NCBI GenBank assembly: GCA_015063165.1
Contig: SUSZ01000006.1
Span: forward strand, 1 to 64,000
Origin: Thermoplasmata archaeon
Lineage (GTDB): Archaea; Thermoplasmatota; Thermoplasmata; Methanomassiliicoccales; Methanomethylophilaceae
Length of the DNA stretch: 64,000 nt
Reading direction: 5' to 3'
Translations under genes and position numbers: made by a program
In this document: positions 3,390 through 42,991 of the stretch, piece after piece
Layout of the letters: the number at the start of each line of letters is the position of its first letter
Position numbering within the stretch: the stretch's first letter is position 1
The notes under the pieces: generated by a model
The model's database searches: none
What the model saw: only the letters and a program-made list of their open reading frames with translations
Told to the model about the DNA's origin: nothing

Positions 3390-5534
3390 TCATTCTATTT
3401 CCGGCATGATGTTGTTCAAACGCTTGTCTATTTCGTTCGAGTTAAGTTTCTTCAATTCTTTTAATAAGGCTTTGATTGATGTTGTTCTACGTACGGCAGT
3501 GCTAGTTTTTAACATTGTTAGATCATTTCTGATATCGATTGGATTCAGTTTTGATTTTTTCATAAGAGATTGAATAACCGGTGTGCGAAGAATTAACTTC
3601 GGTACTATGTCATTGTAATTGCAGTTCCGAAGACATTCACCGATTGGTGATATTTTTATAGTATTGGGTTTTTCTTTTTTATCTATCCATGCAAGATCTA
3701 ACATTGCAAGTATCTTGGCATGGTTTTCCCCATACTTTTGTTTACTAACCTCTGTATCCGTTTTACGTCCTTCCAGTAAGGAACCAAACACAACATATGT
3801 AAGGCCGGATTTTGAGAGGTGGACCAGTCCATCGGCAGCATATTTTAATTTGCTAATTTGCGGGATGTCTTCTGGAACTAAATCTGAATCAGGGATATTA
3901 TCAATAATGTCAAGAATGGCTTCTATTGGGGTTTCATGTAATGTATGCAGGACCTTATACGCGAGGGCATTGATCGGTGTTTTGTTCATACAGCAGTGAC
4001 GAGGTTTGACAATAAAACAAGAGAAATCGAGACTCCCCTCAAAGTATTGTCTTATAAAAGTGATTTTGTCTGTATTATCATTGAAGAAATCGTCCCAGGT
4101 TAAGTATTCCCCTTTGTTTTTACAAACATCACAAGGATGTGTCATTTTTCTTCCATAGCTAACTACGCACTCGTTTATTTGATCAAATCTCATATCGAAG
4201 TATTTTTTTGCAATGTCGGGGCGATCTCTTTCAAACAACAGCATTGCTTGATAGGAGGCGCACATCTCGTTGTTGTTGTAGTCCCTATTCGCTTCGCAAA
4301 ACTGTCTAAATGATTTCTTTTTGAAGAAATTGGGTTGGTTGCACCACCTTGCCAATTCTGTATAGACGCCTCTGTATCTGCTTTCTTTGTACTTTTCGAA
4401 ACGCATAATATATGGAAGACAACCGTACTTCATCAGGATCTGGATGCGTTCGAAGACGCCTTCTATGTCCACTTGGTCACGTTCTTCCTGGCTATTGAAG
4501 CCATTCATTCTTTTCAAGAAGTAGTGGTGGTAATTATCTTGAAGATCTGTAGCAACAACTTCGTAGTCCCACGAGTCAAACGCACATAGTACATACAGTT
4601 TTGTTGTTTTAGAGCACCACTTCCTCCACAATTGTAATTTTCTCTCTATGAGTTTGGCTTCATTTACATGGTCAAAAGCAAATATGAAGTCTCCATGGTA
4701 CTTGCTGTTGCAAAGTTTTTTAGCGTGACCCTCTTGCAACAAACGAATATCAAGACCTTGTCTAAATTGAAATGGTTTCCCAGTGGCATTCAGATCATCA
4801 AAAATTTTTTCCCATCCGTCTTTTAAAGCGAAGATGTTGTCATCCCATAAGTAAATCATTGGACGATCTTTATCTAAAAATTCATCTAAGGGGGAATTAA
4901 CGAATGCATGGTCGTATTTTCTATTAACGCAAAAGTGGCATTTTCTGAAGCAGCCTCTTGATGTAAAACCAATGGAGTAGTTTAGATAGTCGTCAAAATA
5001 GGATTTTTTTCTTCCTTCTGATATTTTACAATCCACATAATCTTTGTAGAGAGAGTATAGTGGCCTAAAATGCTCAATATCGTGGTGGAGGTTGCGTCCT
5101 CCATCAATTTCAAAGAACCCTGTACCCCCTATCAGTAGTACGGTTTTTGTCGGTCTTTTTTTTTCGTACTTGTTCAATGCTTTATTTATACATCCATTTA
5201 AAGAAGAAAGGTTATTGAGGTATGGCCTTAGATATTTCTCTAATTGTTTGGGAATTTTTGTGAAATTAAAAACCTTAGACGCTATTATTAGATCATACCT
5301 TTCGAGATTATTCAGGTCTTCCTCCTAGTAAATTAATTTGATTTTATGCCCTCTGCTTTTACAATAACCAGCCATTTTCATCTGGGCAAGATTGGGGTGC
5401 CGCGTACCGTTGTCCAGTAGGTCAACATCCATCATTCCTATGTTGAGCACGACTGAGTTAACCGGTACAACGTCTGGAAGATCATCCGAATAGATCTCTA
5501 TAGGTAACTGAGTGTTTTTTTTAGGTGGGCACAT
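3390..5534 (-). CDS. Radical SAM protein with in-frame amber codon (predicted pyrrolysine 70)
   Basis: A single frame runs from ATG 5534 to TGA 3392-3390 with one internal TAG at 5327-5325 (codon 70), giving 714 residues if read through. Residues ~25-115 resemble the N-terminal domain of B12-binding-type radical SAM proteins: NGTRHPNLA, then GH-IKL, then after the amber codon YDLIIASKVF and FTKIP. The cluster motif CFRKCHFC (Cys 195, 199, 202) is the CxxxCxxC site for the 4Fe-4S/SAM centre. Further Cys-rich motifs (CDVCKNKG, RHCC) follow. The C-terminal ~139 residues are a module repeated in the next gene. A start at MNKYEKK (5177) would lose the N-terminal domain. Reaction unknown. Confidence 0.8.
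5325..5327 (-). other. In-frame TAG, candidate pyrrolysine codon in the radical SAM gene
   Basis: Minus-strand TAG at codon 70. Both flanks belong to the same recognisable domain: family-typical GHKIKL just before and NLERYDLIIASKVF just after. A true stop here would split one domain. Confidence 0.65.
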
Positions 5535-32642: not shown

Positions 32643-32999
32643 TTATAGGAAGGCCAGGTATCTGCCTGCCGCCGCCCCGGCCACGCAGACCGCCGAGTTG
32701 AGCAGGACGTTGCCCGCCGCGTACCAGTAGGACCCGTCGGCGATGAGGTTCACTGTGTCTATCGAGAACGTGGACATGGTCGTGAACGCGCCGAACAGCC
32801 CTACGAACAGGAACGTCTTCAGCTGGTCCTGCATGTCCACTCCGAAGCGGAACATCAGGAACGACGCCAGGACGCATCCGACGATGTTCACGATGAACGT
32901 CGCCCAGGGGAAGTCCGTCTCGATCAGCCTGTACACGGAGAATCTCAGGACGGCGCCTATGGCCCCTCCGGCCGCCACCGCAATCGCGCTCAGCATCAT
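32643..32999 (-). CDS. crcB: Fluoride channel CrcB/Fluc
   Basis: 118 residues with four membrane helices. Family motifs: GGAIGAVLRFSV at the N-terminus, FPWATFIVNIVGC (conserved Asn), GLFGAFTTMSTFS (conserved Gly/Thr/Ser/Phe box). Exports fluoride as a dual-topology dimer. TAA stop. No fluoride riboswitch was recognised upstream. Confidence 0.94.
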   Translation of the reverse strand: MMLSAIAVAAGGAIGAVLRFSVYRLIETDFPWATFIVNIVGCVLASFLMFRFGVDMQDQLKTFLFVGLFGAFTTMSTFSIDTVNLIADGSYWYAAGNVLLNSAVCVAGAAAGRYLAFL

Positions 33000-33036: not shown

Positions 33037-34068
33037 TTAATCTCGGAAGCCGGCAGGACGGCCGTCTCGTCCGTCGATGCGGGTCGATCCGTCGAGCATA
33101 TCGCGGTATCTCTTCCTGTAACGGCTGGGGGTGCATCCGAACATCTTCTGGAACTCCTCGGCGAATTTGCTCTCCTTCCGGAAGCCGCTGCTGTTCGCGA
33201 TCGCCCCGATGGGCTCGTCGCCGACCATCAGCTCGCTGGAGGCACAGAGCATCCTCTGGTGCTTATGGAACGCGTAGGGCGTATCCCCATACACCTCTGA
33301 GAAGGACGAGCATATGTTGCATCTGTCCATGTCGAGTTCCAGGCACGCCTCCTTGATGTTGCATGGACGGTCGTAGCAAGACGCCAGCCTGTCGTACAGC
33401 CGGTCCTCCCTCTCGGAGAGATGGGCTAGGACCATCCCTTTGGGGCGAGCGTCCAGCGGTTCGGAGAGGTCTTCCAGGATCTCGTCCACGAGGGCATGGA
33501 TTAGCGCCCTTCTCTCAGGACGACCCAGCGCTCTCTAGATGGCCATGGCGTCGGCCATGGGTCTGTCGGGCAGCCTCAGAGGCCATAGCGGCCTGTCCTT
33601 GTACTATTCTACGAACCGCCGTACGGCGCCCGCAGGTTCCGCATCGGCGCCCTCGGGCAGGATGCCGTACCTGTCCAGGTCTATCCCGATGGTGATTGAT
33701 TCGTATCCTTCGGTGTGGACGGTCATGAAAGACTGCACGCTCACCGGGTAATAGATGACGACGCTGCCTGGCGACAGGGACAGATGATTTCCGCCGTACT
33801 CTATGGTCATCCTGCCATGCAACGTGCAGTCGATCATGATGAAGTTCATCTGGCCGATCTGGTTCCTGTTCGAGAATCTCGGCATATCCGTGACCATATG
33901 ATTCACCACGAACCCCTGGTCGAAAGGATAGTTCATCACATCGGTCGATCCGCCAGGACCTCTGATGGAGTATCTGAGGCCCGATTCGAACGGTGTGATC
34001 TCGAAATTGTTGTGGAGCAGCGTGTCCATGTCTTCTCGCCGACCTAGAGGCTGTGAGGATGGCCCCAT
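33037..34068 (-). CDS. AraC-family regulator with two in-frame amber codons
   Basis: One frame from ATG 34068 to TAA 33037 with TAG at codons 155 and 178, 343 residues if read through; ATG 34029 is an alternative start. Residues 1-150 form a cupin-like sensor half (GGNHLSLSPGSVVIYYPVSVQSF). Residues ~255-335 hold two helix-turn-helix units: CNIKEACLELDMDRCNICSSFSEVYG and PIGAIANSSGFRKESKFAEEFQKMFGCTPSRYRKRY. The ambers fall in the linker. Divergent from the triple-domain binding protein across a shared promoter, so it most likely controls that uptake cluster, as AraC regulators do at siderophore loci. Confidence 0.82.
33535..33537 (-). other. Second in-frame TAG of the AraC gene
   Basis: Codon 178, between MADAMAI and RALGRPERR. 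Frame and coding character continue on both sides. Confidence 0.6.
33604..33606 (-). other. First in-frame TAG of the AraC gene
   Basis: Codon 155, between GAVRRFVE and YKDRPLWPL. No ATG that would give a sensible separate start lies between it and the DNA-binding half except far downstream. Confidence 0.6.
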
Positions 34069-34070
34069 TA

Positions 34071-34138
34071 TTTGTAATTATTAGTCATGGTTAAATAATG
34101 AGTCGGCGAGATAATCCAATCCGATACCATATCGGTGG
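34071..34138. promoter_or_regulatory. Divergent promoter and RBS between AraC and triple binding-protein genes
   Basis: GGTTAAATAATG at 34089-34100 provides a TATA-like element readable on both strands: about 25 bases from the AraC ATG (34068) and 45 from the binding-protein ATG. GGTGG at 34134-34138 sits four bases before ATG 34143 and decides that start over 34098. Confidence 0.6.
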
Positions 34139-34142
34139 TAGA

Positions 34143-37100
34143 ATGGATAAAAAGATTATCGCTTTGATAGCTATCGTCGCAGTGGTCGCCATCGCTGCCG
34201 CGGCAGCCTTCGTCGTCATGAGCGGCAGCAGCGACGAAAAGGCTCCTGTCGAGAAAGACACCTTGAAAGTGACGGACATGGCTGGCAACGAGGTCCAGCT
34301 CAAGGTTCCCCTGGAGAGGGTCGTCTGCGGCGATGCGGGCCTGATGACCCTGGTAGCATCGATCGCAGGAGAGAACTTTGGGAACATCCTGGTAGGGTAT
34401 GACAGCAATCTCCGCGAGATGTATCCAGATTTCATGGATATGTGGACGGATGCCGGCATAGACTTCTCTAAGATCAAGCCGGTTGGATCCTTCCTGGACT
34501 CCTCGTTCAACTGGGAGACGGTCGCTTCGCTGAAGCCCGACGCCGTGTTCGTCCCGTACTGGTGCATCACGTATGGTATGGTCACCCAGGAGAGCATCGA
34601 CAACATGGCCAAGGCCGGGATCCCGATCGTCACCCTGGACCTGTTCTCGGCCAAGCTGAACGCGGACGAGATGTCCAAGAACTGCGAGGTGCTCGGAAAG
34701 ATATTCAAGAACGAGCGCACGGCGAGCGATGTGGCCAAGTTCTACAGGAACCAGGTGGAGAAAGTCTCCAGCAAGCTCTCGCAGGTCCCTGCGGACAAGT
34801 ACACGTACTACATCGAGACGATAACCAACCTCGGCCAGTATTGCCTGAACTATTCCACGGACGACGGCAAGCCGCAGGAAGCGCTCAACCAGAAGTCCCT
34901 GACCAAGTACGGCGAGACCGTGGGCGCGGAGGCGTTCGCTTCCAGCGATGTGGACTTCATATTCCTGGATCTTCTCAGAGCGTACTACCCGGACATCGGG
35001 AAGTACATAGGATGGGGAGCCAAGGCCCCCACGGAGTCGGATCTCCGCACGCTCGCTTCGGCTCTCGACAAGAGGGTCGGATGGTCCGCCAGCATCCCCG
35101 CCATCGACAACAACGAGATCTATTTCATAAACAAGATGTCCATGAGCGGTACGATAGACGGCTGGTGGATACAGCAGTTCTATGCGGAGAAGATGTTCCC
35201 CGAGATCTTCGGCGACCTGGGATACATCGAGGCGCTGGGCGATTTCTACAAGACATACCTTCCCTGGGTCGATTTCAGAGGCGTATGGTACTTCGGTCTC
35301 AACGGCGAGGTCGGGGCGACTCCCGTTTCGGAGAGCAGGGACAAGGCGGCCACGGTCACCATAACCGATCTCGCAGGGCGCGAGGTCAAGATAAGCACCC
35401 CTGTCGAGAGGGTGGTCTGCGGCGACGCCGAGGCGATGTCCCTGATAGCGGCCATCGCCGGAGAGGATTTCAAGGACTGCCTCGTCGGATACGACAGCAA
35501 CCTCCAGACGTACTACCCCGACCTGGCCAGGATGTGGGAGAACGCCGGACTGGACTTCTCCAAGATCGCCTCCGTCGGGAGCTTCCAGAACTCTACCTTC
35601 AGCTGGGAGGCCGTCGCCTCCCTGGATCCGGACGTGGTCTTCGTTCCGATGTGGGTGTACCAGTACGGGATGGTGTCCGAGGATACGGCCAAGAAGATGG
35701 CCGACGCGGGCATCCCGATAGTGAACCTCGATCTCTTCGTCAACAGCTACGACGCAGATACGATGTCCAAGAACTGCGACATCATCGGGAAGATCTTCGA
35801 CAGGAGAGGCGTCGCCTCCAAGGTCGCCGACTTCTACGCGGAGCAGCTGGATTCCGTTCTCGGCAAGAGGTCCCAGATCCCTGAAGGGAAGCTCTCCTTC
35901 TACGAGGAGATGCTGGTCAAGCTCGACACATACAGGGGCGGAGCAAACGTCGCGGAGGCCCTGGCGCTCGGCCAGCAGAACATCGCGACGCCCGGCCAGC
36001 AGATCAGCGCCGAGGCCTTCGTCGCGAGCGATCCGGATCACGTCTTCTTCATGGCCTACAACGGTGCGGCCGAATGCGGGAGGAACATCGGATGGGGCGC
36101 GACGGTCACCGCTTCCGACATCGCCGATATAAGCGCCTCGTTGTCCAAGAGGCCCGGATGGAACAGCGTCACCGCCGTGAAGAACAAAGACGTCATGGTC
36201 TACGACCAGGTCTATTTCAACACGTTCGAGAACTGGATGATCCTCCAGCTCCATGCTATGCAGATGTTCCCTGATATGTTCTCGTCGTTGGACCCTGTCG
36301 GATCCCTCGAGAGCTTCTACGAGGAGTTCCTGCCCTGGGTGGAGCTCAAGGGCGTCTGGTACTTCACCCTGGGCGGCGACATCGGGGAGACCCAGACGTC
36401 TGGCGGCGGCGACGTGGGCAGGACTGTGACGGTGACCGATCTGGCTGGACGCGAGGTAGCGCTCGACATCCCTCTGAAGAGGGTGGTGTGCGGCGACGCC
36501 GAGTCGATGACCCTGATCGCGTCCATTGCAGGCGAGCAGTTCACCGACATCGTAGTCGGATACGACAGCAACCTCAACACGTTCTACCCGGATTTGAAGG
36601 AGATGTGGACCAACGCCGGCATGAACTTCGGCAGGATGACCGAGGTCGGCAGCTTCCTTCAGGGGACGTTCAACTGGGAGACCGTCGCATCGCTGAACCC
36701 CGACGCGGTCTTCATGCCAACCTGGTGCATCCAGTACGGGATGGTCAGTCAGGAGACCGTGGACAAGATGGCGAAGGCGGGCATACCTATAGTTACTCTC
36801 GACCTGTTCGTCGGAAAGCTCAACCCGGAAACCATGAGCAAGAACTGCGACATCGTGGGGAAGATATTCGACAACCAGTCCAAGGCCGCGAAGGTAGCCG
36901 ATTTCTATAAGACGCAGGTCGAGAAGGTGTCCAGCAAGCTCTCGCAGGTCCCTGCAGAGAAGTACACGTACTATGTCGAGCTCGTCACATACCTGTCGCA
37001 ATACAGCCAGAACGAGTCTGACAACCCCATAGAGTGCCTCAACCAGAAGTCCTTGACCCAGTACAAGCAGACCGTGAGCCCCGAGGTGTTCGCGACCAGC

Positions 37101-37478
37101 GATGTGGACTTCGTATTCTTCGACCTCCTCAGGTCGTACGCTCCGGAGTGCGGCAAGTTCATCGGATGGGGGGCCAGCGTCACCAAGTCCGACATAGACT
37201 CCATCGCGGCCAAGCTCGGCACGAGGATAGGCTGGAACGATTCGGTGCCTGCCATCAGCAGCGGCAACGTCTACTTCATCGACAAGATGAGCATGATCGG
37301 CATGTTCGACTGCTGGTTCGTCTACCAGTTCATGGCGGAGACCATGTTCCCGGAGATCTACGGCGACCTCGACTGCCTCGGGACTCTGGACGGATTCTAT
37401 TCAGAGTACCTCCCATGGGTCGAGTTCAAGGGCGTCTGGTATTTCTCCATCGACGGAGAGGTGGGAGCCACTTCCTGA
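34143..37478 (+). CDS. ABC substrate-binding protein with three tandem binding domains
   Basis: 1111 residues from ATG 34143 (RBS GGTGG). An N-terminal anchor helix (about 4-27) is followed by three homologous domains of ~340 residues. Each begins with a V-TD-AG-EV strand and PLERVVCGD (PVERVVCGD, PLKRVVCGD), has GYDSNL, GSF and a YGMV motif mid-domain, and ends PWV-FKGVWYF. They match the iron-siderophore/cobalamin binding family. Domains 1 and 3 are closer to each other than to 2 (both keep VEKVSSKLSQVPA and YTYY). Followed by a FecCD permease and an ATPase. Three binding domains for one transporter could raise local ligand capture or accept different ligands. Confidence 0.92.
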   Translation: MDKKIIALIAIVAVVAIAAAAAFVVMSGSSDEKAPVEKDTLKVTDMAGNEVQLKVPLERVVCGDAGLMTLVASIAGENFGNILVGYDSNLREMYPDFMDMWTDAGIDFSKIKPVGSFLDSSFNWETVASLKPDAVFVPYWCITYGMVTQESIDNMAKAGIPIVTLDLFSAKLNADEMSKNCEVLGKIFKNERTASDVAKFYRNQVEKVSSKLSQVPADKYTYYIETITNLGQYCLNYSTDDGKPQEALNQKSLTKYGETVGAEAFASSDVDFIFLDLLRAYYPDIGKYIGWGAKAPTESDLRTLASALDKRVGWSASIPAIDNNEIYFINKMSMSGTIDGWWIQQFYAEKMFPEIFGDLGYIEALGDFYKTYLPWVDFRGVWYFGLNGEVGATPVSESRDKAATVTITDLAGREVKISTPVERVVCGDAEAMSLIAAIAGEDFKDCLVGYDSNLQTYYPDLARMWENAGLDFSKIASVGSFQNSTFSWEAVASLDPDVVFVPMWVYQYGMVSEDTAKKMADAGIPIVNLDLFVNSYDADTMSKNCDIIGKIFDRRGVASKVADFYAEQLDSVLGKRSQIPEGKLSFYEEMLVKLDTYRGGANVAEALALGQQNIATPGQQISAEAFVASDPDHVFFMAYNGAAECGRNIGWGATVTASDIADISASLSKRPGWNSVTAVKNKDVMVYDQVYFNTFENWMILQLHAMQMFPDMFSSLDPVGSLESFYEEFLPWVELKGVWYFTLGGDIGETQTSGGGDVGRTVTVTDLAGREVALDIPLKRVVCGDAESMTLIASIAGEQFTDIVVGYDSNLNTFYPDLKEMWTNAGMNFGRMTEVGSFLQGTFNWETVASLNPDAVFMPTWCIQYGMVSQETVDKMAKAGIPIVTLDLFVGKLNPETMSKNCDIVGKIFDNQSKAAKVADFYKTQVEKVSSKLSQVPAEKYTYYVELVTYLSQYSQNESDNPIECLNQKSLTQYKQTVSPEVFATSDVDFVFFDLLRSYAPECGKFIGWGASVTKSDIDSIAAKLGTRIGWNDSVPAISSGNVYFIDKMSMIGMFDCWFVYQFMAETMFPEIYGDLDCLGTLDGFYSEYLPWVEFKGVWYFSIDGEVGATS

Positions 37479-37536: not shown

Positions 37537-38601
37537 ATGGAGAATCACGAAACTACAGACGGCTCCCACATGATGAAAGGATACGATCGCCTGATAGGAA
37601 GGCGCAAGATGTACCTGGCGGCATCGATCGTGGTGTGCGTGGCGGCTTTTTTCATAGACCTCACCGTGGGTTCCTCGGGGATGTCGGTCATCGACGCCAT
37701 CAGGACGCTCGTCGTCCCGGATCAGGTCACCGCCATGGACAGGCTGATCATCTACGACATACGCCTTCCGGCGACGACCATGGCTATAGCCGTCGGCATG
37801 AGCCTTGCGCTCGCCGGATCGGTCATGCAGACGATTTTGGACAACCCGATGGCCGAGCCCTATACGCTGGGGATATCCTCGTCGGCAGGGTTCGGGGCCG
37901 CGCTTATGATAGTCGTCGGGTCCTCCGCGGTCGGAGCGATGGGGATGATCATGATCTCCGCCGGCGCATTCGGCTGCAGCATGATGGCCTGTCTGGTCAT
38001 CTACATGGTGGCCAGGTTCAGGGCCTCCGACAAGTCGACCATCCTTCTGACAGGGATTGCGATATTCTTCATGTTCCAGGCCCTGCTCTCCACGATGCAG
38101 CTGCTCGCGAACAGCAACCAGCTGTCTGAGATAGTGTTCTGGATGTTCGGGAGCCTAGCCAGATGCTCATTGGAGCAGTGCGGCGCGGTCATCCTGGTGC
38201 TTTCCATCTCATCGATCGTGTTCATCTTCAGCTCGTGGAGGTACACTGCCCTCAAGCTCGGGGATGCATACGCGTCTAGCCTCGGGGTTGACGTAGCAGG
38301 GCTCAGGAGAAGGACCCTGATAGTGGTGTCTGTGCTCACCTCCGTCGCCGTCTGCTTCGTGGGGACGATCGGATTCATCGGGCTGATAGCGCCGCACATC
38401 TCGAGGTTCCTCGTGGGCGAGGACCACAGGTACTACATCCCGATGTCCATGGCGGTGGGGGCGATCATCCTCATCCTGGCCAACATGCTGAGCAAGGTGG
38501 TGGCTGCGCCGTCGATATTCCCTGTCGGGATCCTCACGTCGTTCATCGGAATCCCGTTCTTCTTCTATCTCGTCCTTTCGAAGAGGAGGTTCGCATCATG
38601 A
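37537..38601 (+). CDS. FecCD-family ABC permease
   Basis: 354 residues. About ten membrane helices; DIRLPATTMAIAVGMSLALAGSVMQ, DNPMAEPYTLGISSSAGFGA and FVGTIGFIGLIAPHISRFLVG are the family marks. RBS-like GGGGTCAG lies before ATG 37537. The stop overlaps the ATPase start (ATGA). Partner of the triple-domain binding protein. Confidence 0.93.
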   Translation: MENHETTDGSHMMKGYDRLIGRRKMYLAASIVVCVAAFFIDLTVGSSGMSVIDAIRTLVVPDQVTAMDRLIIYDIRLPATTMAIAVGMSLALAGSVMQTILDNPMAEPYTLGISSSAGFGAALMIVVGSSAVGAMGMIMISAGAFGCSMMACLVIYMVARFRASDKSTILLTGIAIFFMFQALLSTMQLLANSNQLSEIVFWMFGSLARCSLEQCGAVILVLSISSIVFIFSSWRYTALKLGDAYASSLGVDVAGLRRRTLIVVSVLTSVAVCFVGTIGFIGLIAPHISRFLVGEDHRYYIPMSMAVGAIILILANMLSKVVAAPSIFPVGILTSFIGIPFFFYLVLSKRRFAS

Positions 38602-39368
38602 GCCTGGAGCTCAAGGGGGTGGTGTGCAGCTACAGCCAGAAGGAGGTCCTGCACGACGTATCCTTCGAATCTGACGCCAGGCTGATAGCGGTGGTGGGGC
38701 CGAACGCCGCTGGCAAGTCCACATTGATCAAATGCATGGCGGGGCAGATCCCCCATGGCGGGTCCATCTCGTTCAACGGCACGGAGATAGGCCGCGTCGA
38801 TCAGACCTCTACCGACCTGGTGGGTTATCTGCCGCAGCAGCACATGAGCGCCGTGGCGATGACCGTGTACGAGACCATCCTCCTCGGGAGGCTCAATCAC
38901 ATCAGATGGAGCCCCAGCGAAGAGGACAGGCGCATGGTGGACCATGCGATGACGGAGCTCTCTCTCGACAGGATCGCTGACAAGCAGATCAACGAGCTGT
39001 CTGGAGGGCAGCTGCAGATGATCTCCATCGCCCAGGCGCTGGTGAAGGAGCCGCAGCTCCTGCTCATGGACGAGCCCACGAACAATCTCGACCTCCAGAA
39101 GCAGCTGGAGATGTTCGAGGTAGTGAAGGATCTGTCCGAACAGCGCGGGCTGGTGACGGTGATGATCCTGCACGACCTGAACCTCGCCTCCCGCTTCGCG
39201 GACGAGGTTGTGGTCCTCCAGGAGGGGAGGGTGTATGCCAAGGGGCCCGCCCAGGGGATCTTCACGGAAGAGATGCTGAGGGACGTCTACAAGGTGAGCG
39301 CGGAGGTGATCCACGACCGCGACGGGCTCCCGCACGTGGTCGCATACGGATCCCTGAAGCACACGTGA
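38598..39368 (+). CDS. ABC importer ATPase (FecE/BtuD type)
   Basis: 256 residues; Walker A GPNAAGKST, Q-loop LPQQHMSAVAMTV, signature LSGGQLQMISIAQ, Walker B LLLMDEPTNNLD, H-loop ILHDLNLASRF. Starts by ATGA overlap with the permease, so the two are translated together. Powers the second importer. Confidence 0.94.
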   Translation: MSLELKGVVCSYSQKEVLHDVSFESDARLIAVVGPNAAGKSTLIKCMAGQIPHGGSISFNGTEIGRVDQTSTDLVGYLPQQHMSAVAMTVYETILLGRLNHIRWSPSEEDRRMVDHAMTELSLDRIADKQINELSGGQLQMISIAQALVKEPQLLLMDEPTNNLDLQKQLEMFEVVKDLSEQRGLVTVMILHDLNLASRFADEVVVLQEGRVYAKGPAQGIFTEEMLRDVYKVSAEVIHDRDGLPHVVAYGSLKHT

Positions 39369-39428
39369 ATCGAAGGATGCAGGACGCAGGTCAGGAACGG
39401 AGAACGATTGACGACGAAAAGGTGGAAC

Positions 39429-41216
39429 ATGTTCAAGAAAGACAAGCATAGCCGCATCGCGGAATTCGAGAAATATGCCGAGGGCAGGCATCACTGGGTG
39501 AAGGCTTCGATGATAGGGTCGGCCATAAGCTCGGTGCTGTCCATCGTGCCCTTCTATTACATCTGGCTGACGGTTGACGAGGCGCTCGGCGCGGGCGACC
39601 CGGATACGATGATAGGATACGGCTGGTCGGCAATGGCGTTCGCGGTCCTGTCGATCGCCGTCTACATCCTGTCGCTCATAATATCGCACTTCGCCGCCTT
39701 CCGCATAGCCAAGAACATGAAGAAGATTCTCGTGGAGCATTCCCTGAAGCTGTCCCCCGGCGCGTTCGACGAGGAGGGCAGCGGAAGGATACGCAGGGTG
39801 ATACAGGACTCGGTGGAGTCCACCCACGAGTTCATAGCGCACAACCAGCCGGACCTGGCTGGGATGTACGTCCTCCCGTTCGCGATAGTCGCCCTGCTGC
39901 TGGTGTTCGACTGGAGGCTGGGCGTCGCCGCTCTCGTCCCCGTGATGATCGGAGGCTACATCTCCATGTCCATGATGGGAAGGTCCTCCATGCAGGAGAG
40001 CATGACCGCATGGCAGTCGTCCATGGCCGATGTCAACAACAAGGCCGTGGAGTATGTCCGCGGAATCTCCGTCGTGAAGATATTCCAGCAGACCGTGGAT
40101 TCCTTCCAGAGCCTCAAGGGGTCCATCGACTCCTACGCAGCGTACTGCCAGGGATACACCGAGATGGCCAGGAGGCCGATGACCGCATTCTTCGTCCTGG
40201 TAAACAGCTGCGTGTCGTACGTGATCATATTCGGGGTGCTGATCATCGAGGTCCTGGAGAGCGGCGAGATAAGCAGCGGCATGGTCTCCAACGTGATCTT
40301 CTACGTGGTGTTCACGCCGCTCATCTCGGTCCTGTTCATGAGGATAATGTTCTCGTCCGACCAGACCTACAGGGTGGACGACGCCCTGATGCGGGTGAAC
40401 GAGATCCTTTCCATCGAGCCTCTGGAAGAGCCCTCCGCCCCCAAGATGCCGAAGTGCTTCGACATCGCGTTCGACAACGTCCGCTTCTCCTACTCCGAGG
40501 GTCTGGCGCCCGCTATAGACGGCGTCTCGCTGGAGCTGAAGCAAGGGACGATAACCGCTCTCGTAGGGCCGTCCGGCAGCGGGAAATCCACGATGGCGGG
40601 ACTGGCCGGGAGGTTCTGGGATCCGCAGGATGGCTCGATATCCATAGGCGGCATCGACCTCCGCGACATCGGCAGCAGCAACCTGCGCTCCATAGAGAGC
40701 TACGTCTTCCAGAACAACCGCCTCATCAAGGGGACCCTGCTGGAAAACGTCCGTCTGGGAAGGCCTCAGGCCGGGCCGGAGGAGGTGGCGGAAGCGCTCA
40801 GGCTCGCCCAATGCGAGGACCTCGTCGCCAAGATGCCCCACGGCCTGGACACCCTCATCGGCCCTGGAGGGACGTACCTCTCCGGAGGGGAGGTGCAGAG
40901 GATCGCCATCGCCAGGGCCATCCTAAGGGACGCCCCCATAGTGATATTGGACGAGGCGACGGCGTTCGCGGACCCGGAGAACGAGCATCTGATCCAGAAG
41001 GCTTTCGAGGAGCTCTCCAAGGGCCGCACCGTGCTGCTGATAGCGCATCGCCTCACCACCATCCGCAATGCGGACCTGATATGCGTGATGGATCGCGGCA
41101 GGATCGTCGAGTCCGGAAGGCACGACGAGCTGATGTCCTCCGCCGGAAAGTACCGTGACATGTGGGATGATTACCAGAAAGCCCTCTCCTGGAAGGTCAA
41201 GGAGGCGTCCGCATGA
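39429..41216 (+). CDS. Exporter-fold ABC transporter, subunit A
   Basis: 595 residues from ATG 39429, preceded by AGGTGG six bases away (TTG 39408 lacks this). Six-helix membrane domain, then nucleotide-binding domain: Walker A GPSGSGKST, Q-loop YVFQNNRL, signature LSGGEVQRIAIARA, Walker B IVILDEATAFAD, H-loop IAHRL. Forms a pair with the next gene (ATGA overlap). Located after a siderophore-type importer and near an AraC regulator, an arrangement like yersiniabactin YbtP/YbtQ, where exporter-fold subunits serve in uptake. Direction of transport is unproved. Confidence 0.9.
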   Translation: MFKKDKHSRIAEFEKYAEGRHHWVKASMIGSAISSVLSIVPFYYIWLTVDEALGAGDPDTMIGYGWSAMAFAVLSIAVYILSLIISHFAAFRIAKNMKKILVEHSLKLSPGAFDEEGSGRIRRVIQDSVESTHEFIAHNQPDLAGMYVLPFAIVALLLVFDWRLGVAALVPVMIGGYISMSMMGRSSMQESMTAWQSSMADVNNKAVEYVRGISVVKIFQQTVDSFQSLKGSIDSYAAYCQGYTEMARRPMTAFFVLVNSCVSYVIIFGVLIIEVLESGEISSGMVSNVIFYVVFTPLISVLFMRIMFSSDQTYRVDDALMRVNEILSIEPLEEPSAPKMPKCFDIAFDNVRFSYSEGLAPAIDGVSLELKQGTITALVGPSGSGKSTMAGLAGRFWDPQDGSISIGGIDLRDIGSSNLRSIESYVFQNNRLIKGTLLENVRLGRPQAGPEEVAEALRLAQCEDLVAKMPHGLDTLIGPGGTYLSGGEVQRIAIARAILRDAPIVILDEATAFADPENEHLIQKAFEELSKGRTVLLIAHRLTTIRNADLICVMDRGRIVESGRHDELMSSAGKYRDMWDDYQKALSWKVKEASA

Positions 41217-42991
41217 GCGTCTCAGGGTCTCTCAAGGAACGCTGGGGGCTCACGGATAAGCAATGGAGCAACCTCAAGAGGGCCATAGCGGCGACGCTCG
41301 TCACGGACTTCGTCCTGATGGTCCCGATGATGGTCGCCATCATGTTCGTGGCCGGCCTGATAGGGGACAACCAGTACGATTTCGGCCTCGACCTGTGGGT
41401 CTACGCTGCGATAGGCCTGGTGATGATGCTGGCGACCGGCGCCGCCTACTTGTACCAGTACAACCGCTGCTTCTTCGACGTCTACCAGGAGAGCCGGAAC
41501 GTCCGCACGGGCATGGCGGAGAAGATGAGGAAGGTTCCGCTGTCGTTCTTCGCCAAGAAGGACCCTACTGACCTCACGGTGCGCATGATGGGTGACGTGA
41601 CGATGCAGGAGACCGCGCTTTCCCATTGGATCCCCGCCCTCGTAGCCTCGCTGATATTCACGACCGCCGTCGGCGTGATGATAGTCGCATGGTCTCCGAT
41701 CCTGGGGCTGGCGATAGTTTGGCCGATCCCGGTGGCGTTCCTGATGGTGTTCCTCTCGGCCGGGATGCAGAAGAAGGAGAACAGGAGGAAGATGGAGAAG
41801 ATGGAGGCCGTCACCGAGATGATACAGGAGTCCCTGGAATGCTCCGCGGACCTCAAGGCCAACGATGCCCAGGGATCCTACATGGCGAGGCTTGGGAAGA
41901 ACCTCGACGCCGTCGAGGGCGCGGAGATCAGGTCGGAGCTCACGATGTCCTTCTTCGTGGTTGGCGGACAGCTGGTCCTGAAGCTCGGGATCGCGACCAC
42001 TGCCATAGCCGGCGCCGTGCTCTTCTCCGAAGGCTCCATATCTCTGATAGTGTACATCGCGGCCCTCATAATGGTCGGGAGCATCTACAACCCGATCAAC
42101 ATCGCCTTGCAGAACCTTGCCGCCATACTTATGGCGGAGGACCACTGCGAGCGCATCCAGGAGATCAATAGCCTGGGTATCCAGACCGGGTCGGAGTCTT
42201 TCGAGCCCGAGAACTACGATATCGAGTTCAAGAACGTGGGGTTCTCGTACAACGACGGCCAGACCGTCCTGGAGGACGTCTCCTTCGTGGCGAGGCAGGG
42301 AGAGGTCACCGCGCTGGTGGGCCCGTCCGGAGAGGGGAAGTCCACCGTCGCCAGGCTGGCCACCAGGTTCTGGGATGTCGACAAGGGGCAGATAACTCTT
42401 GGGGGCATAGACACATCCATGGTCGATCCCGAGACGTTGATGAGCAAGTACTCCATAGTCTTCCAGGACGTCGCGTTGTTCAACACCACCGTGATGGAGA
42501 ACATCCGCATTGGAAGGAGGGGGGCATCCGACGAGGAGGTGCTCGCGGCGGCCGAAGCGGCGATGTGCGACGAGTTCGTGTCCGCCCTTCCCGAAGGATA
42601 CGATACGGTTATCGGCGAGAACGGGAGCAAGCTCTCCGGAGGCGAGAGGCAGAGGATCTCCATAGCGAGGGCGATATTGAAGGACGCCCCGATCATCATC
42701 ATGGACGAAGCCACGGCCTCGCTCGACACCGAATCGGAGAGCAGGGTCCAGAAGGCCCTGTCCAGGCTCGTGGTCGACAAGACGGTTCTGATAATCGCCC
42801 ACAGGATGAGGACTGTGGAGGAGGCCGACAAGATCGTCGTCCTGTCGGGAGGAAAGGTGGGCGAGGAAGGCCCGCCGTCGGTGCTGAAGGAATCCGGAGG
42901 GCTGTTCGAAAGGATGGTGAAGCTCCAGACCGACTCTGACGTATGGAGTCTGCGATGGCCGATCGCGCTAAGAAGGCCGGAGATAACATGA
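41213..42991 (+). CDS. Exporter-fold ABC transporter, subunit B
   Basis: 592 residues. Membrane domain with PLSFFAKKDPTDLTVRMMGDV coupling region, then Walker A GPSGEGKST, Q-loop IVFQDVALF, signature LSGGERQRISIARA, Walker B IIIMDEATASLD, H-loop IAHRM. Partner of the preceding gene as a heterodimer. Last gene of the cluster. Confidence 0.9.
   Translation: MSVSGSLKERWGLTDKQWSNLKRAIAATLVTDFVLMVPMMVAIMFVAGLIGDNQYDFGLDLWVYAAIGLVMMLATGAAYLYQYNRCFFDVYQESRNVRTGMAEKMRKVPLSFFAKKDPTDLTVRMMGDVTMQETALSHWIPALVASLIFTTAVGVMIVAWSPILGLAIVWPIPVAFLMVFLSAGMQKKENRRKMEKMEAVTEMIQESLECSADLKANDAQGSYMARLGKNLDAVEGAEIRSELTMSFFVVGGQLVLKLGIATTAIAGAVLFSEGSISLIVYIAALIMVGSIYNPINIALQNLAAILMAEDHCERIQEINSLGIQTGSESFEPENYDIEFKNVGFSYNDGQTVLEDVSFVARQGEVTALVGPSGEGKSTVARLATRFWDVDKGQITLGGIDTSMVDPETLMSKYSIVFQDVALFNTTVMENIRIGRRGASDEEVLAAAEAAMCDEFVSALPEGYDTVIGENGSKLSGGERQRISIARAILKDAPIIIMDEATASLDTESESRVQKALSRLVVDKTVLIIAHRMRTVEEADKIVVLSGGKVGEEGPPSVLKESGGLFERMVKLQTDSDVWSLRWPIALRRPEIT

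Follow-up and report, generated by a model that had tools for sequence, protein, structure and literature searches.

We analysed a 64,000-nucleotide stretch of archaeal DNA (the window) and found in it an AraC-type regulator gene crossed by two in-frame TAG codons. The most probable reading is that both UAGs are decoded as pyrrolysine, that the intact regulator so made controls a divergent uptake cluster, and that the TAGs are tolerated rather than forming a dedicated switch. We infer the insertion of pyrrolysine, the ligand and the regulatory target from sequence. Contig C58, of which the window forms the initial 64 kb, belongs to a 2.28-Mb genome (G000; 99.86% complete); the closest of its named relatives is a metagenome-assembled genome (MAG) of Candidatus Methanomethylophilaceae from sheep rumen. 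The features of the locus are the following:

33037..34068, minus strand: gene for an AraC-type regulator, a single frame holding two internal TAGs (frame reading, HTH_18 match, relatives and model)
33679..34002, minus strand: N-terminal beta-barrel (cupin-like) sensor domain, model residues 10-117 (predicted structure)
33604..33606, minus strand: TAG codon 155, which is residue 142 when counted from the likely start, in a predicted linker helix; CAG in G026
33535..33537, minus strand: TAG codon 178, residue 165, in a predicted linker helix; common to G026, and R, W, Q or K elsewhere in relatives
33109..33336, minus strand: HTH_18 / AraC DNA-binding domain (profile match)
34143..37478, plus strand: substrate-binding protein (SBP), a single chain containing three Peripla_BP_2 stretches in tandem, divergent from the regulator
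37537..38601, plus strand: FecCD/BtuC-type permease
38598..39368, plus strand: FecE-type ABC ATPase
39408..41216, plus strand: ABC transporter half, membrane and ATPase parts
41213..42991, plus strand: partner ABC transporter half

Two TAG codons in a single regulator frame

On the minus strand, positions 34068-33037 form a single frame that runs from ATG to TAA and encodes an AraC-type regulator. The only internal stops are TAGs at codons 155 and 178, exactly the two in one continuous frame that the initial annotation had described, and the frame is free of TAA, TGA and frameshifts. Judged by homology, translation likely starts at codon 14 (34029), giving a product of 330 residues. The coding score is equal on either side of and between the TAGs (0.22, 0.25 and 0.22), and the region past TAG178 matches HTH_18 (E 7e-16, 58.6 bits against a cut-off of 33.6), the C-terminal two-HTH domain of the AraC/XylS family. 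The part ahead of TAG155, searched alone, gave no significant Pfam match, and AraC_binding_2 matched the regulator at a sub-threshold E of 0.005.

We modelled the read-through regulator with lysine in place of pyrrolysine. The model is a confident cupin-linker-HTH fold (pLDDT 83.9, pTM 0.85), with a barrel at residues 10-117, linker helices at 135-143, 155-167 and 171-188, and a DNA-binding domain at 206-312. Foldseek returned domain-level matches to ToxT, CuxR and Rns as well as to cupins, and together with the model this provides the N-terminal beta-barrel expected of an AraC/XylS member. The two UAG-encoded residues, 142 and 165, are predicted to lie close to the ends of helices in the interdomain segment, which agrees with the earlier placement of the TAGs between the sensor and DNA-binding halves. 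By itself the model is no proof of UAG decoding.

Pyrrolysine machinery and TAG usage in the host

A host able to decode UAG was borne out: G000 encodes PylS, with a tRNA-Pyl gene (CTA anticodon; tRNA-Pyl(CUA)) directly adjoining, and its MtmB, MtbB and MttB genes carry one TAG apiece. PylS was detected in 28 of the 31 genomes of the genus. G003 is one of the three genomes without a match at the cut-off, a gap that would have told against decoding; each of its two mtmB genes nevertheless holds one TAG, so that pylS is probably absent from this assembly rather than from the genome.

Stop usage was counted over a sample of stretches using our own gene caller, which moves each start out to the first ATG, GTG or TTG; TAGs within the first approximately 50 codons of calls were left out as likely start errors, and G026 and G001, sampled over 40-60 kb with poorly trained models, were excluded from the rates. 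Under table 11, the 290 genes called in 369 kb of G000 end in TGA (251), TAA (27) or TAG (12). For at least six of the 12 TAG-ended calls, including three methyltransferases and the regulator, coding continues past the TAG, and at most five of about 283 called genes in the 369 kb (at most about 2%) have a plausible TAG terminator. In G003 the bias is more extreme: of 234 calls, about one has a plausible TAG terminator. Across the genus, internal TAGs occur in genes for an Lhr helicase, TnpB, a flavodoxin-Fer4 protein, a nitroreductase, an LRR protein and an integrase. Because the pyl machinery is present and TAG is rare at gene ends and occurs inside unrelated genes, TAG appears to be a genome-wide pyrrolysine codon in G000, and its depletion at stops together with its use inside unrelated genes indicates constitutive decoding. 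This usage in G000 and G003 matches the pattern of Ca. M. alvus and rumen ISO4-H5: according to PMC4153887, Ca. M. alvus has 1.6% TAG stops and 16 non-methyltransferase pyrrolysine candidates, and the low TAG-stop frequency is taken as a sign of constitutive pyrrolysine decoding; PMC5011839 gives 46 genes with an in-frame amber codon for ISO4-H5.

Other TAG-bearing frames were recorded. In the window, a 714-aa frame at 3390-5534 (minus strand) has a TAG at codon 70, coding signal on both sides and no Pfam match, and is a probable further pyrrolysine gene. Elsewhere in G000, a 2761-aa frame (L039/L040; G000:C32:17271-25556) has its sole TAG at codon 1911 with coding on both sides; a nitroreductase-family gene (L047:18448-18960) that adjoins the pyl/mtmB region has a TAG at codon 81; and an integrase gene (L047:9732-10943) has two TAGs. 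In G013, an Lhr-type helicase of 1786 aa (L108:4712-10072; G013:C35) has a TAG at codon 595 with strong coding on both sides, and a TnpB-like transposase gene in G003 (L104:14837-16153; G003:C1) has an internal TAG. Mobile elements are thus TAG-bearing too.

Relatives of the regulator

Full-length homologues of the regulator number 11 including the window gene, all of them inside the genus; family-wide searches beyond it gave HTH-level matches alone and no full-length homologue. Five of the 11 carry an internal TAG, at four columns: 155 and 178 in the window gene, 178 in G026, 104 (window numbering) in both G019 and G003, and 251 in G013. None of the 11 has an internal TAA or TGA, or a frameshift, so the mixture of all three stop types that the initial annotation had named as the mark of a pseudogene is not what the relatives display. 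Among weak HTH-only matches in other genera, which are not orthologues, two have one TGA. A TAG in an AraC gene of G025, three codons ahead of a TGA near the C terminus, was left uncounted as a possible ordinary stop.

Conservation of the TAGs, which had been proposed as a check, held in part. The nearest ortholog, in another MAG (G026; 86% identity), shares TAG178, whereas its codon 155 is CAG, and both codons specify ordinary residues in the remaining relatives. The regulator thus has an in-frame TAG flanked on both sides by conserved coding sequence, as expected of a pyrrolysine protein, but lacks the family-wide TAG position of pyrrolysine methyltransferases. Because the window gene and the G026 gene share one ancestry, the conservation of TAG178 counts as a single event.

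The AraC family is enriched in TAGs. Five of 11 homologues have an internal TAG versus 12 of 571 other called genes (about 2%; Fisher P about 5e-6), the latter set excluding methyltransferases and AraC genes and, like the counts of about 155 below, being tallied by hand. The excess persists when the window gene and G026 are removed (3/9, P 0.001) and when G019 and G003 are counted once (2/8, P 0.014). Families from the same cluster are almost devoid of TAG: among the matches listed, the strongest ones, 2 of about 155 Peripla_BP_2 genes and 0 of about 155 FecCD genes have a TAG. The simplest reading is that the excess may stem from relaxed constraint on a low-expressed regulator. The alternative, which would be novel, is that pyrrolysine is functionally retained in a transcription factor. 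The G019 and G003 proteins are 34% identical and are sisters on a long branch in the best tree (78/84 support), and their column-104 TAGs occupy one and the same position in a strand of the sensor barrel, which may reflect retention or convergence. That the AraC family consists of pyrrolysine transcription factors, in which UAG was gained repeatedly and on one branch (G019/G003) retained because pyrrolysine, or its limited supply, aids sensing or the dosage of the regulator, strikes us as unlikely.

Selection past the TAGs

If TAG178 had a single origin, the divergence between G000 and G026 accrued with this codon in place, because both genes carry it. Between the two, dN/dS is 0.17 for codons 19-154, 0.20 for codons 156-177 and 0.23 for codons 179-229; for the HTH it is 0.40, a value based on few synonymous changes, and for everything past TAG178 about 0.3-0.4. 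The dN of the HTH (0.053) equals that of the sensor (0.052), and the two are again equal against the TAG-free G011 ortholog (0.203 and 0.209). In a neutral simulation of codons 179-320, built on 39 nucleotide differences, 19 amino-acid changes were observed versus 26 expected (P=0.005). The tail past codon 320 is unconstrained, and taken over its full length the gene evolves more rapidly than the genes around it (dN/dS 0.30 against 0.07-0.16). We conclude from these sequence comparisons that the part past TAG178 is still under purifying selection.

The neighbouring uptake cluster

Divergent from the regulator lie the genes for the triple SBP, the permease, the ATPase and the ABC halves, which form an MsbA-like pair. 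The best curated relative of the triple SBP is a ferrichrome/ferrioxamine binding protein, below the cut-off, and the cluster is predicted to serve the uptake of siderophores or related metal complexes. It is 94-98% conserved in G026, and copies of the ABC pair that are 74% and 70% identical in G003 and G013 again adjoin TAG-bearing AraC genes. Genes for SBPs, permeases, ATPases or ABC pairs of this kind adjoin 10 of the 11 full-length homologues; the short contig of G011a shows no uptake-type neighbour. The association between regulator and uptake cluster that had been proposed at the outset therefore stands in the sense that a likely functional read-through regulator adjoins the cluster. Upstream of the SBP start, window positions 34121-34135 hold a short inverted repeat, CCGATACCATATCGG, which is largely kept in G026 and is a possible operator. 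Downstream of the regulator, positions 32643-32999 (minus strand) encode a small, putative membrane protein that by eye resembles the CrcB fluoride channel.

Alternative explanations

Loss of the gene would account for the TAGs if TAG178 inactivated it in the G000/G026 ancestor and TAG155 followed later. Such an early pseudogene would be expected to evolve faster than its neighbours, as this gene does, and the same contig holds a twelfth family member, a 5'-truncated, frameshifted relic 50 kb away (L003; G000:C58:83867-84100). That relic, at 83.9 kb, displays the local look of decay, however, and the regulator gene shows neither lost constraint nor mixed stops or frameshifts: constraint persists past TAG178 against neutrality, the HTH and the sensor change at the same rate, and the host has the pyl system. 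The lack of TAA, TGA and frameshifts in all 11 homologues points the same way but is weak evidence alone, because, by chance, TAG would be the outcome of about half of the single-step nonsense changes open to this gene. Given purifying selection past TAG178 and the confident read-through fold, a pseudogene is unlikely, and we assign this reading a low probability. The gene might instead be split, with the cupin half and the HTH half made as two proteins and the second begun at an internal start past TAG178; a GTG at codon 194 does open a 150-aa frame holding the entire HTH. Shine-Dalgarno-like motifs are absent ahead of codons 194, 212, 247 and 259, codons 179-193, just ahead of that GTG, show one nonsynonymous and five synonymous changes between G000 and G026, and both domains are single-chain in relatives, all of which make a split gene very unlikely. 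Sequencing or assembly error, to which the presence of TAG155 in one MAG only could be ascribed, is hardly credible, given the high quality of the assembly and the presence of TAG178 in a second, independent MAG. The recurrence of TAG178 in G026, the even coding score and the constraint past TAG178 place the TAG pair beyond chance or assembly error.

The initial annotation had further suggested that the TAGs form a nutrient-responsive switch, in which the efficiency of UAG read-through sets the level of full-length regulator and the uptake cluster follows methylamine or pyrrolysine status. With two serial TAGs ahead of the DNA-binding domain, the yield of full-length product would depend steeply on decoding. 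Relatives in the AraC family have TAGs before or inside the HTH, and in the bacterium Acetohalobium arabaticum UAG decoding varies with carbon source, according to PMC4153887 and PMC8211752. Against this, the sites are lineage-specific, TAG is rare as a terminator and decoding looks constitutive, and a search for PYLIS-like RNA structure after either TAG gave no signal above background (z 0.07 and 0.18). With no conservation of the sites, and neither an internal start nor a cis RNA element close to the TAGs, the proposed switch found no support and is improbable.

The reading we prefer, an intact regulator with tolerated TAGs, would work as follows. With UAG a nearly dedicated sense codon in rumen-type Methanomethylophilaceae, tRNA-Pyl would read both TAGs as pyrrolysine, and read-through would yield an intact regulator of about 330 residues. 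The ligand sensed by its beta-barrel would likely be a ferric siderophore or a comparable metal complex, and the regulator would control the divergent triple-SBP/FecCD/ATPase/ABC-pair cluster. The TAGs would be lineage-specific substitutions tolerated in the linker helices.

Implications and comparison with known systems

If the regulator does contain pyrrolysine, gene control in a gut methanogen depends on a rare amino acid of methylamine metabolism. Under standard gene calling, TAG-bearing genes come out as two pieces and are wrongly labelled as pseudogenes or truncated proteins. The TAG excess in the AraC family offers a small, testable set of non-methyltransferase UAG gains that may be neutral or useful.

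ToxT, Rns and CuxR, members of the AraC/XylS family, share with the regulator a beta-barrel sensor, a helical linker and a two-HTH DNA-binding domain, although the likeness is at the level of domains only (full-length TM about 0.3, 13-15% identity) and UAG-encoded residues in the linker helices set the regulator apart from all three. In yersiniabactin uptake, the AraC regulator YbtA lies beside the paired ABC half-transporters YbtPQ, much as the regulator here adjoins an ABC-half pair and siderophore-type uptake genes; the present locus differs in being archaeal and in having a triple-SBP/FecCD system with a putative substrate, and the likeness is one of arrangement, not orthology. Kivenson and colleagues reportedly described, in Science in 2025, the whole-code reassignment of TAG to pyrrolysine in archaea, and a genome-wide sense TAG of that kind fits the stop usage measured in G000.

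We found no report of an AraC regulator with pyrrolysine in the open-access literature, and none is among the pyrrolysine candidates described in the excerpts of PMC4153887 and PMC5011839. Like those Methanomassiliicoccales candidates, the regulator has in-frame TAG in an ordinary gene of a host with a pyl operon, and Ca. M. alvus resembles G000 in having very few TAG terminators (PMC4153887). Compared with the Ca. M. alvus and ISO4-H5 candidates as these excerpts present them, it stands apart as a transcription regulator with two TAGs and with several TAG-bearing members in its family.
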